Virus record (IMG/VR): IMGVR_UViG_3300027710_000120
Location: 1-25,607 of that record
DNA length: 25,607 nt
Source of the DNA: a virus
Strand: one strand, 5' to 3'
In this document: piece by piece, positions 2,802-9,050 of the stretch
Position numbering within the stretch: the first letter of the stretch is position 1
Layout: every line of letters begins with the position of its first letter
Program-made: the position numbers and the translations under genes
The notes under the pieces: generated by a model
Told to the model about the DNA's origin: nothing
Database searches by the model: none
The model's input: only the letters and a program-made list of their open reading frames with translations

Positions 2802-3002
2802 ATGGCTTACACGGTCTTCAAGCACAATCAGGAGTTCACAAGCCGCAAGGGCTTAGAGGGTCCTTTCCACTATCCCAACGGTCGTGTTCTGTATTACGAT
2901 CCAATGGCTGGCGAGTACTGGGATCCACGCACAGACTTCTATGTGCCCAACGATGAAGTCTCTGAACTACAGAATTCAATCTTTGATGTAGTTAGGGGTT
3001 GA
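2802..3002 (+). CDS. Small phage protein, unknown function (66 aa)
   Basis: AAGGAG lies seven bases before the ATG and P5 starts the transcript about 20 bases upstream. The product MAYTVFKHNQEFTSRKGLEG... is short, acidic and Tyr/Pro rich (RVLYYDPMAGEYWDPRTDFY) and looks like a small beta-rich domain. There is no signal peptide and no membrane segment. I do not recognise the family. Like the gene before it, it ends in a TGA that is part of the next -35 hexamer. Confidence 0.78.
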   Translation: MAYTVFKHNQEFTSRKGLEGPFHYPNGRVLYYDPMAGEYWDPRTDFYVPNDEVSELQNSIFDVVRG

Positions 3003-3027
3003 CAGGGTTGGTAAAACCTGTTATAAT
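2999..3027 (+). promoter_or_regulatory. Early promoter P6
   Basis: TTGACA (2999-3004), 17-bp spacer, TATAAT (3022-3027), TG one base before the -10. The spacer with its flanks is an imperfect dyad, ACAGG.TT...AA.CCTGT. The TGA stop of the upstream gene is inside the -35. Confidence 0.92.
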
Positions 3028-3349: not shown

Positions 3350-3352
3350 TAA

Positions 3353-3390
3353 CCCTACCGGTTGACAGGGCTTTGATTTGGTGTTATAAT
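3353..3390 (+). promoter_or_regulatory. Early promoter P7 with CCCT/AGGG junction stem
   Basis: TTGACA (3362-3367), 17-bp spacer, TATAAT (3385-3390). CCCT (3353-3356) can pair with AGGG (3367-3370), placing most of the -35 in the loop, the same design as P5 and P11. Confidence 0.9.
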
Positions 3391-3648: not shown

Positions 3649-3861
3649 ATGGAAATCCAATTTCGTACCTCAGAGCAGAGGCGCATTGCAGACCTTATGT
3701 GGGCCTGCCAGACCAATGATGAAGTCAATGTGCTACTCCGTGCCTTTGGCGTAGAAGCCTACATAGTGCGGGAGATGATGATTGCCGCTACCTACGATGA
3801 AGTAGAAGATGTGGCTTTTGCACAACAAGTCCTAAAACCCTTTAGGTTGACAGGTCTTTGA
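3649..3861 (+). CDS. Small alpha-helical phage protein (70 aa)
   Basis: AAGGAG lies before the ATG and overlaps the previous gene's end. The product is mostly helical: EQRRIADLMWACQTNDEVNV, then LLRAFGVEAYIVREMMIAA and YDEVEDVAFAQQV. It resembles short phage proteins of unknown function. It has no membrane segment. The last five codons (Leu-Thr-Gly-Leu-stop) read through the -35 box of promoter P8, so the gene end and the promoter of the RNA cassette overlap. It is cotranscribed with the preceding gene from P7. Confidence 0.78.
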   Translation: MEIQFRTSEQRRIADLMWACQTNDEVNVLLRAFGVEAYIVREMMIAATYDEVEDVAFAQQVLKPFRLTGL

Positions 3862-3875
3862 AAAGACGTTATAAT
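3847..3875 (+). promoter_or_regulatory. Early promoter P8 (drives a non-coding cassette)
   Basis: TTGACA (3847-3852), 17-bp spacer, TATAAT (3870-3875), followed by ACATACA as in its siblings. The spacer contains the dyad GTCTTT GA AAAGAC. No reading frame of useful length follows. Confidence 0.9.
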
Positions 3876-3881
3876 ACATAC

Positions 3882-4008
3882 AAGAAGAAAGAATAAGGTT
3901 GCTGAAGTAAAGAGCATTTAAGGACGCTGAGGAACAGTGTTAACGCCCCAGAGGAACTAGGGCATTTAGATGGGGCAACGATTATAATAACCCTACAGAG
4001 AATAGGGT
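3882..4008 (+). ncRNA. Candidate phage small RNA, about 127 nt, own promoter and terminal hairpin
   Basis: The transcript from P8 should begin near 3882. All three frames are closed by stop codons within a few codons, and the only ATG gives a 5-residue peptide. The RNA can form ACGCTG/CAGTGT (3924-3929 with 3935-3940, loop AGGAA), GCCCCA/TGGGGC (3945-3950 with 3971-3976, 20-nt loop containing AGGAA) and an end hairpin ACCCTA/TAGGGT (3990-3995 with 4003-4008). An outer GTTG/CAAC pairing (3898-3901 with 3976-3979) could close a junction. GAGGAAC occurs twice, both times in loops, so a GGA-binding protein of the CsrA type or an antisense role is imaginable. No tRNA arms are present. The alternative is a decayed gene between two promoters. 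Confidence 0.55.
3990..4008 (+). terminator. CCCTA...TAGGG junction hairpin
   Basis: ACCCTA and TAGGGT form a 6-bp stem around CAGAGAA, just before promoter P9. It lacks a U-tract but recurs in related form at other junctions. A look-alike, GCCC...AGAGGAACTA...GGGC, lies at 3945-3963. Confidence 0.6.
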
Positions 4009-4011
4009 CGG

Positions 4012-4040
4012 TTGACAGAGTAGTAAAACGAAGTTATAAT
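4012..4040 (+). promoter_or_regulatory. Early promoter P9
   Basis: TTGACA (4012-4017), 17-bp spacer, TATAAT (4035-4040), then ACATACACAC. Confidence 0.92.
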
Positions 4041-4070: not shown

Positions 4071-4457
4071 ATGACTAAAGTAAACTATGACAGATTTGCT
4101 AGTTTTGACATTAACGAATGCTGTGACCACTTTGACAGTGAGAAGCAGAGCAACTGGAAGAAGATCGGTAAGTTCATCGTAGCAGATGGACAGGACTATG
4201 TTAACATTATGGAGACAGAGTTCGACTTTGAAGACACAGGTGATGGCGAGTATGCGGCATTTGACGCAGGTGTTAAGTATGCCTTAACTAAGATGAACAT
4301 TGCCTTTGAGGCGGCAGGCCTGGACTTGCAGATCTGCGAGATAGACTTGGTAGAGAGCATGGGCTTTATTATGGTCCGTGCAGACGACGAGCCTGAGGAC
4401 TTCGTTAAGCGGGTTCTTAAGAAGCCCGTGTTAATGGTAGAGAGCTGGATAGACTAA
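4071..4457 (+). CDS. Acidic phage protein, unknown function (128 aa)
   Basis: AAGGGG lies about seven bases before the ATG, after P9. The product is strongly acidic: MTKVNYDRFASFDINECCDH at the start, an Asp/Glu-rich middle (METEFDFEDTGDGEY), a long central helix (FDAGVKYALTKMNIAFEAAG), and a C-terminal half ending KPVLMVESWID. It has no membrane segment. An acidic, compact early phage protein may be a DNA mimic or inhibitor, but nothing here proves that. It is a single-gene unit, followed by a 116-base gap holding a long hairpin and the next promoter. Confidence 0.82.
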   Translation: MTKVNYDRFASFDINECCDHFDSEKQSNWKKIGKFIVADGQDYVNIMETEFDFEDTGDGEYAAFDAGVKYALTKMNIAFEAAGLDLQICEIDLVESMGFIMVRADDEPEDFVKRVLKKPVLMVESWID

Positions 4458-4709: not shown

Positions 4710-4943
4710 ATGAACAAGTATCAGAAACAAGCCGCACTAGACCTAGTCAAGGTCGCTACCATTGTGCTGGGTGCCATCGCAGTCGTTGGCTACATTATCA
4801 AGTTGGGCGTAGAAGCCAATGACTTGGTTGCCGCTGGATCCTTTGCCCTTATGGGCTACTGTATCTATCAACTGTACCAAGTCCGTGTAGGACAGTTGGA
4901 GTCTGAGGATCAACGCAAAGAAATGGAAAGCCGTTACAAATAA
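4710..4943 (+). CDS. Small membrane protein with two transmembrane segments (77 aa)
   Basis: AAAGGAAAG precedes the ATG. After a short N-terminal helix (MNKYQKQAALDLVK), residues about 15-35 (VATIVLGAIAVVGYIIKLGV) and 39-57 (LVAAGSFALMGYCIYQLYQV) are hydrophobic enough to span the membrane as a hairpin. A charged C-terminal tail (RVGQLESEDQRKEMESRYK) is probably cytoplasmic. Early phage proteins of this shape are often superinfection-exclusion factors, or are simply unknown; I cannot choose. It shares a transcript with the 44-aa gene before it. Confidence 0.75.
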   Translation: MNKYQKQAALDLVKVATIVLGAIAVVGYIIKLGVEANDLVAAGSFALMGYCIYQLYQVRVGQLESEDQRKEMESRYK

Positions 4944-4945
4944 CC

Positions 4946-4981
4946 CTAGTGGTTGACAGGGCTTTGTAAAGACGCTATAAT
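4946..4981 (+). promoter_or_regulatory. Early promoter P11 with CCCT/AGGG junction stem
   Basis: TTGACA (4953-4958), 17-bp spacer, TATAAT (4976-4981), then ACATACACAC. The upstream TAACCCTA and the spacer start AGGG repeat the P7 arrangement. The spacer holds CTTT GT AAAG. Confidence 0.92.
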
Positions 4982-5009: not shown

Positions 5010-5366
5010 ATGTCAGATTACAATCACATTGTTTTAGGCCGAGACTTCCGCATGATGGATGCTGAATGCGTTAAGTTGGTTAAGAAACTTGCAGGCAAGA
5101 TCCCACAGAGCGGCATGCGGTATATTGACGATAACACGATCTTGCTACAGTCAAACTCTGTACACGACATCCTTGACACTGTTCGGAACGGTGCTTGGGC
5201 ACACTCAACCAATCCAAGCCGCGTTAAAAAAGACTTCCAGGTCTACATTGTGCCCAACAACAAGACACAAGAACTCTACGGTGCGGCTGCCGTAGGTGTT
5301 AGCTTTATAGCAGATGCCGATGTCTATAAAGACATTAATAACGAATTTGTTTGGGCTAGCGAATAA
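5010..5366 (+). CDS. Phage protein, unknown function (118 aa)
   Basis: The start at 5010 follows AAAGGA and lies downstream of P11; the longer in-frame reading into the promoter is rejected. The product MSDYNHIVLGRDFRMMDAEC... is a mixed alpha/beta soluble protein with a KKLAGKIPQSGMRYIDDNTI segment and a beta-rich C-terminal half (DFQVYIVPNNK, AAVGVSFIADADVY). No active-site pattern is visible and I do not recognise the family. It is a single-gene unit whose stop runs directly into the CCCTACA hairpin. Confidence 0.8.
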   Translation: MSDYNHIVLGRDFRMMDAECVKLVKKLAGKIPQSGMRYIDDNTILLQSNSVHDILDTVRNGAWAHSTNPSRVKKDFQVYIVPNNKTQELYGAAAVGVSFIADADVYKDINNEFVWASE

Positions 5367-5384
5367 CCCTACAGCTTGTAGGGT
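5366..5384 (+). terminator. Perfect CCCTACA/TGTAGGG hairpin before P12
   Basis: ACCCTACA and TGTAGGGT form an 8-bp stem with a GCT triloop, starting at the last base of the preceding stop codon. It is the best copy of the junction hairpin. No U-run follows. Confidence 0.65.
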
Positions 5385-5386
5385 GG

Positions 5387-8461: not shown

Positions 8462-9050
8462 TACATTTTACCTGGACATGGACGGGGTTGTCGCAGATTG
8501 GGACAGGGCCGCATCCCAGTTTCTAGGACGACCACAACGGCCCGCCAATGATCTAACACACTATAAGAATACTCCAGAAGAGTGGAGTCGTATTAAAACA
8601 CAACAGAGATTTTATCGTAGCCTGCCTTTGATGCCCAGATCTGCGGAACTAGTGGATCTAGCACGACGATATAGAGATGGGTTGGGTTGGAACTTATTGT
8701 TTCTAACTGCTGTGCCCAAAGATGATGATGTGCCTTGGGCCTACTACGACAAGGTATTGTGGGCTCAAGAACACTTTCCCGACGTCCCTGTACACTTTGG
8801 ACCGCACTCGTGGGACAAACAACGGCATTGTCGGTCCGGGGATATCCTAGTAGACGACCGACCTGATAACTGCTCTAGTTGGATTGCCGCGGGTGGACTG
8901 GCTGTACAAGTTCTTGGCAACGATTTGAGTGCGGCTATTACTCAAGTGAGCTTTGATCTTAACCGACGTATGAGTCTACGTAGCATGGCCGCGTTGAATG
9001 ACATGGCTGACGCTATTGTGGCTGCTGGTGGCTTTAAAGTTGGTAGTTAA
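8454..9050 (+). CDS. HAD-type 5'(3')-deoxyribonucleotidase (198 aa)
   Basis: The HAD motif I LDMDGVVADW is at residues 7-16 (nucleophile Asp8, acid/base Asp10), motif II is near FLTAVPK, and motif IV is DILVDDRPDNC. This is the 5'-nucleotidase C family, which dephosphorylates deoxynucleoside monophosphates in the cytoplasm and helps balance phage nucleotide pools. The length fits the family. A C-terminal extension of about 40 residues (LNRRMSLRSMAALNDMADAI onward) looks like an added helical hairpin. It is coupled to the preceding GNAT-like gene and followed by GC-rich hairpins. Confidence 0.85.
   Translation: MTNTFYLDMDGVVADWDRAASQFLGRPQRPANDLTHYKNTPEEWSRIKTQQRFYRSLPLMPRSAELVDLARRYRDGLGWNLLFLTAVPKDDDVPWAYYDKVLWAQEHFPDVPVHFGPHSWDKQRHCRSGDILVDDRPDNCSSWIAAGGLAVQVLGNDLSAAITQVSFDLNRRMSLRSMAALNDMADAIVAAGGFKVGS

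Follow-up and report, generated by a model that had tools for sequence, protein, structure and literature searches.

We describe RNA-1, a conserved noncoding RNA with an 86-nt core and a Y-shaped fold, encoded behind a consensus early promoter in a virus record of 25,607 bases that is probably a fragment (the whole of this stretch is called the window below). That a conserved noncoding RNA with this fold exists is, in our judgement, close to certain; the fold matches no Rfam family and is a new structured phage RNA. Our preferred reading, to which we give a probability of roughly 60%, is that RNA-1 is a free-standing early RNA gene with a stable product that acts in trans.

A conserved noncoding core in an array of early promoters

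Small early genes are arrayed along the first 6 kb of the window, almost every one behind a consensus promoter of its own, and the early-promoter pattern has 18 matches in the window compared with 1.06 expected. An initial annotation, made from the letters alone, had singled out one full-consensus early promoter, P8, as being followed by a stretch with no reading frame while its siblings each serve a gene. P8 matches the consensus at 12 of 12 positions and is the sole promoter among the 13 in the array with no ATG-started frame within ~70 nt. As had been proposed, the stretch behind it is free of reading frames, with no + strand frame of at least 25 aa overlapping the RNA-1 core in the window copy. 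The elements of the region are as follows.

3847 to 3875, + strand: sigma-70 promoter P8, TTGACA-17-TATAAT, expected transcript start near 3882
3895 to 3980, + strand: RNA-1 core, 86 nt, conserved structured RNA, with copies in 26 other IMG/VR contigs; covariance model R1 scores 106 bits here
3990 to 4008, + strand: junction hairpin ACCCTA/TAGGGT, -6.5 kcal/mol, a possible 3′ end, not a canonical terminator
4012 to 4040, + strand: next promoter, 12/12 consensus, serving the 128-aa gene; abuts the RNA-1 core directly in L169-type relatives
4071 to 4457, + strand: downstream early gene, 128 aa, function unknown, 102 related stretches in IMG/VR

The 128-aa gene has no Pfam or PHROG match. Upstream of P8, a 70-codon frame (3649-3861) has its stop codon inside the promoter spacer, so the end of this frame overlaps the -35 box. 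CCCTA-type inverted repeats are also found at several gene ends (2727-2760, 2990-3010, 3352-3372, 4943-4962 and 5364-5386). They overlap or base-pair with the -35 box of the promoter that follows, which means that adjacent cassettes share sequence where one ends and the other starts.

A locus search returned 167 loci, nearly all retrieved via two neighbouring genes, and the RNA-1 stretch was present in ten of these from other contigs; pattern scans of IMG/VR raised the total to 26 contigs besides the window, with 18 distinct sequences. All relatives are metagenomic contigs, most of them fragments, and each record carrying RNA-1 holds one copy. Further pattern matches (L172, L173, L178, L179, L193, L195-L197, L199, L208-L212, L214 and L217) were rejected as RNA-1 copies, and eight matches in genome contigs were put down to chance, having nothing in common with the core beyond the 20-base pattern. 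RNA-1 was found in none of 26 other large contigs with a neighbour gene and in none of 33 further ones, and is thus an accessory element. Annotated phage records gave no DNA match to the stretch, and neither did 274 genomes of one bacterial class, a weak negative given its stricter filters and lack of a positive control. Rfam 15 gave no match at gathering across the window and none at E<=10 for 3840-4020, and no match came from the literature combining structured RNA, jumbo phage and covariation.

Six sampled relatives share 93-94% identity with the window over the 86-nt core. For five of them, from the group in which a promoter abuts the core, identity falls to 50-56% in the upstream gene and 47-55% in the spacers (~50% being chance level), with 58-68% in the promoter and 81-85% in the downstream gene. 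The sixth, L096, has an identical promoter and leader, a 92% identical spacer, and 73% and 52% identity in the downstream and upstream genes, respectively. Since each sibling promoter serves a gene, RNA-1 could be imagined as the remnant of a decayed one, but conservation is higher in the core than in the adjacent functional gene, no relative has an intact gene at this position (no + strand frame of at least 25 aa covers the core, save a 28-codon frame in L171), and compensatory changes occur in the stems. Contradicted by covariation, this explanation has a negligible probability. L171 itself is a 285-kb viral contig with a permuted betaproteobacterial-type tmRNA gene at 8466-8856 (- strand), which hints at a betaproteobacterial host for this relative.

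A Y-shaped fold with compensatory changes in every helix

The 18 distinct cores were aligned with one balanced indel pair, and RNAalifold, working from the alignment only, returned a single Y-shaped fold made of the helices P1 and P1b and the hairpins P2 and P3.

3898 to 3902, + strand: 5′ strand of P1, pairing with 3975-3979; innermost pair C-G, U-G or U-A (C-G -> U-G -> U-A)
3975 to 3979, + strand: 3′ strand of P1, partner of 3898-3902
3903 to 3914, + strand: 5′ side of a conserved asymmetric internal loop (3′ side 3973-3974); AAG, AA and AGCA invariant in 18 sequences
3915 to 3922, + strand: 5′ strand of P1b, pairing with 3965-3972; three pairs with compensatory changes
3965 to 3972, + strand: 3′ strand of P1b, partner of 3915-3922
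3924 to 3940, + strand: hairpin P2, stem 3924-3929 with 3935-3940, loop AGGAA at 3930-3934
3945 to 3963, + strand: hairpin P3, stem 3945-3951 with 3957-3963, loop AGGAA at 3952-3956

Much of this had been anticipated. The two GAGGAAC hairpins are present at 3929-3935 and 3951-3957, each with the loop AGGAA closed by G-C; the suggested outer GTTG/CAAC pairing is the closing helix, GTTGC (3898-3902) with GCAAC (3975-3979); and the terminal CCCTA/TAGGG stem is the end hairpin, ACCCTA/TAGGGT, 3990-3995 with 4003-4008. The eight-base helix P1b had been overlooked, and it is this helix that gives the molecule its Y shape. The TAGGG at 3958-3962, which had been placed in a loop and offered as an alternative partner for the CCCTA of the end hairpin, is instead the 3′ strand of P3. 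The switch between two folds built on that pairing is not conserved, as the end hairpin, besides having no T-run, does not occur in many relatives; the alternative fold needs a hairpin that the L169-type, L171, L194, L198 and L168 copies lack. For the same reason the region is only partly the promoter-terminator cassette it was taken for: its promoter is conserved, and at a constant distance, but the hairpin at its end was not flagged by terminator calling.

On the alignment, 99.3% of cells are paired in the named structure, and compensatory changes on both sides affect 6 of its 25 pairs (19 cells, counted as sequences and not as events), spread over all four helices. None of 500 shuffles matched the observed number of double-changed pairs and none of 500 matched the covariation score, though the shuffles preserve columns and not relatedness. 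Sliding the structure along the alignment gave at most one double-changed pair and at most 44% paired, a control that is biased toward the named structure because the structure was derived from the same alignment. Covariance model R1 scored true copies at 97-113 bits, where the copies used in building the model match by construction, and everything else at 15.6 bits or less. The window copy alone is less telling, with a predicted fold weaker than those of its relatives and a folding z of -2.6 for the 129-nt stretch (3 of 200 shuffles were equally good); it is the comparative evidence that decisively places RNA-1 beyond chance.

Three parts are invariant in the 18 sequences: the loop of P2 and the pair that closes it (GGAACAG), the AAG, AA and AGCA elements, the last of which extends from the internal loop into P1b, and the 3′ strand around GCAACG. 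In the P2 stem, 8 of the 18 carry a compensatory A-U to C-G change. P3 varies more, with one pair appearing as U-A, U-G or C-G among copies and as a C-A mismatch in the window copy, and with a shorter, GGA-less loop in five relatives (L189, L191, L192, L194 and L213).

The exposed GGA had been likened to CsrA-sponge RNAs, and GGA does lie in two hairpin loops in 13 of 18 copies, a feature shared with CsrB/RsmZ-type sponges that could titrate the host regulator CsrA/RsmA. The likeness goes little further. The RNA-1 loops are GAGGAAC, with no ANGGA in either, and not the ANGGAN described for RsmE; one of the two sites is lost in the five copies just named; and two sites are too few where known sponges have many, such as the 22 GGA in CsrB (PMC7652899). 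We consider a sponge very improbable.

Promoter linkage, changing neighbours and mode of action

The -35 box starts 46-48 nt upstream of the core in 24 of the 25 promoter-bearing copies (24 of 27 copies overall) and 60 nt upstream in L168, so that RNA-1 lies near the expected transcript start in 25 of 27 copies. Judged from sequence and comparison, RNA-1 is very probably a promoter-linked early gene. What follows it varies, with about seven unrelated gene clusters and two tRNAs found downstream. In the window, the L170-type contigs, L176 and L177, RNA-1 is followed by the junction hairpin, a promoter and a gene. The cassette of the window group otherwise has the usual promoter-gene-hairpin layout, with RNA-1 standing where the coding gene would be. 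Seven L169-type contigs (L169, L175, L181, L182, L184, L185 and L187) have a promoter and a gene of the 128-aa family directly behind RNA-1, with no junction hairpin, while in L194 and L198 a gene follows directly with no intervening promoter. A second structured RNA, RNA-2, stands between RNA-1 and the gene in L189-L192 and L213. In L215 and L216, RNA-1 lacks its own promoter and is preceded by tRNA-Asp and followed by RNA-2 and then tRNA-Asn, and in L168 RNA-1 is just ahead of tRNA-Cys.

We propose that host sigma-70 RNA polymerase would transcribe RNA-1 from its own consensus promoter as infection begins, and that the transcript would fold as a Y in which the closing helix P1, the asymmetric internal loop and P1b lead to hairpins P2 and P3. 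It would be ended or trimmed just downstream, at the junction hairpin in the window, and in other phages would probably be released by tRNA-processing cuts, leaving a stable product of roughly 90-130 nt that acts in trans. Action in trans as a discrete RNA seems to us a reasonably good bet: neither a riboswitch nor a leader tied to one gene should change its partners this readily, and an RNA flanked by a tRNA gene on either side should be released by cleavage. The P2 loop, invariant as GGAACAG, would most likely be presented together with the internal loop to a host or phage protein, with RNA-1 serving as a decoy or scaffold. We suggest a protein partner since conservation falls on a compact fold with a fixed loop and not on a long free stretch, and binding through these two loops is a tentative proposal whose chances we put a little below even. 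The idea of a phage small RNA in the initial annotation is well supported in that the stretch is noncoding and conserved, with covarying stems in a promoter-linked cassette. Against a free-standing RNA, no promoter separates the L194 and L198 copies from the gene that they adjoin, only RNA-2 stands between RNA-1 and the gene in L189-L192 and L213, no canonical terminator lies behind RNA-1, and the window copy by itself has a weaker predicted fold than its relatives.

The main rival is a leader acting in cis from the very 5′ end of early transcripts, where it would modify RNA polymerase or protect and regulate the mRNA that follows. The put RNAs of phage HK022, a pair of stem-loops close to where early phage transcripts start, modify RNA polymerase and suppress termination in cis, and RNA-1 likewise has two stem-loops near an early promoter. 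Its position near the transcript start in nearly all copies fits such a role, as does the lack of a terminator between RNA-1 and the next gene in the L169-type contigs, L194, L198, L189-L192 and L213; in all of these except the L169-type contigs RNA-1 may be part of a 5′ leader. However, a further consensus promoter begins 1-2 nt past RNA-1 in the seven L169-type contigs, making the next gene independent of a leader there, and the copies in L215 and L216 are embedded in a tRNA cluster and lack their own promoter. The downstream genes are unrelated to each other, and the two hairpins of RNA-1 are enclosed by P1 and P1b on a closed Y and are not in tandem, unlike put. A leader role is unlikely overall, though it deserves more weight than any other alternative.

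The same change of neighbours bears on the idea of a riboswitch or of a ribozyme that cleaves itself. Conservation is high in the internal loop and the junction, as it would be in a ligand-binding or catalytic core, but the neighbouring genes are of many kinds, tRNAs included, where a riboswitch would be consistently linked to one pathway or gene family, and no ribozyme or riboswitch family in Rfam matched at E<=10. We regard this as quite improbable. An antisense RNA that base-pairs with host or phage mRNAs would fit the size, the predicted early expression and the conserved unpaired stretches, but the compact fold leaves few free bases. When phage targets were considered, pairing with 18 translation-start regions of the window was not above chance, the best value of -23.3 kcal/mol being reached by 59 of 100 shuffles. 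This role is improbable too, if slightly less so than a riboswitch or ribozyme.

The close parallels to RNA-1 include the species 1 and 2 stable RNAs of phage T4 (rnaC and rnaD), which are small, stable, phage-encoded and adjoin tRNA genes, much as RNA-1 is found within a tRNA cluster in two copies and next to tRNA-Cys in one. At 139 and 119 nt, respectively, rnaC and rnaD differ from RNA-1 in fold, and homology was rejected when model R1, with filters off, gave no credible match in them (the best score, 10.9 bits, lay outside). GOLLD and ROOL, structured RNAs of phages that likewise occur close to tRNA islands and whose function is unknown (PMC12286853), are intricate and several hundred nt long, compared with 86 nt and no Rfam match for RNA-1. 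The wcaG, manA, glnA and PhotoRC-II RNAs of T4-like cyanophages are structured as well, but those described are mostly cis-regulatory (PMC9964418), and none of them matches RNA-1 in the Rfam search.

Other structured RNAs in the same early slot

The interval that separates an early promoter from the promoter of the following gene appears to be a slot that RNA-1 shares with other RNAs, none of which (RNA-2, RNA-2b or RNA-3) was found in the window.

L190:3381-3458: RNA-2; also in L191, L192, L213, L215, L216, L238, L239, L240, L241 and L242
L019:4841-4929: RNA-2b, in RNA-1's slot; also in that slot in L016, L020, L027, L028, L034, L047 and L058, and at L169:12189-12277
L013:4717-4931: RNA-3, candidate; also in L031, L032, L067, L052, L169:4477-4616, L187, L093 and L101

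RNA-2 is a second structured RNA of 74-79 nt with compensatory changes in 9 of 21 pairs, and it had no Rfam match in the contigs scanned, where two sub-gathering hits were attributed to chance. In L238, L239, L241 and L242 it occurs by itself, preceded by a promoter and leader of the same kind, and in L239, which shares its contig with L054, it occupies the place of RNA-1 ahead of the 128-aa gene. The promoter and leader are duplicated in L242, and in both L242 and L240 (11000-11500, downstream) RNA-2 is located within or next to long stretches resembling larger structured RNAs. RNA-2b is a diverged 89-nt relative of RNA-2 that is often directly ahead of the promoter of the 128-aa gene. RNA-3 is a candidate RNA, about 215-250 nt in length and closed by a long stem (GACAGTTAG...CTAACTGTC), proposed on conservation only, with alifold run on four sequences that did not align cleanly. 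It is found in the same slot in L013, L031, L032 and L067, behind RNA-2b in the last, and is promoter-led in L013, L031 and L169. Only tRNAs were matched by Rfam at the RNA-2b and RNA-3 slot loci, including L013, L031, L032 and L067. A fourth RNA, RNA-4, may be held by L024:2714-2805.

It is conceivable, though we would not expect it, that this locus is an exchangeable early one, filled by unrelated structured RNAs (RNA-1, RNA-2/2b, RNA-3 and perhaps RNA-4) that together make up an RNA-based takeover or counter-defence set for the first minutes of infection; the slot is read from adjacency in a metagenome collection, which does not prove a joint function.

To our knowledge, lytic phages have yielded few small RNAs, the majority of them in a handful of model phages. 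RNA-1 is compact, backed by covariation, and comes from an abundant group of freshwater phages with consensus early promoters and, in some lineages, tRNA clusters. Together with the related loci it offers a concrete, small set of elements in which to search for binding partners, and it raises the question of whether early host takeover by such phages uses RNA besides proteins.
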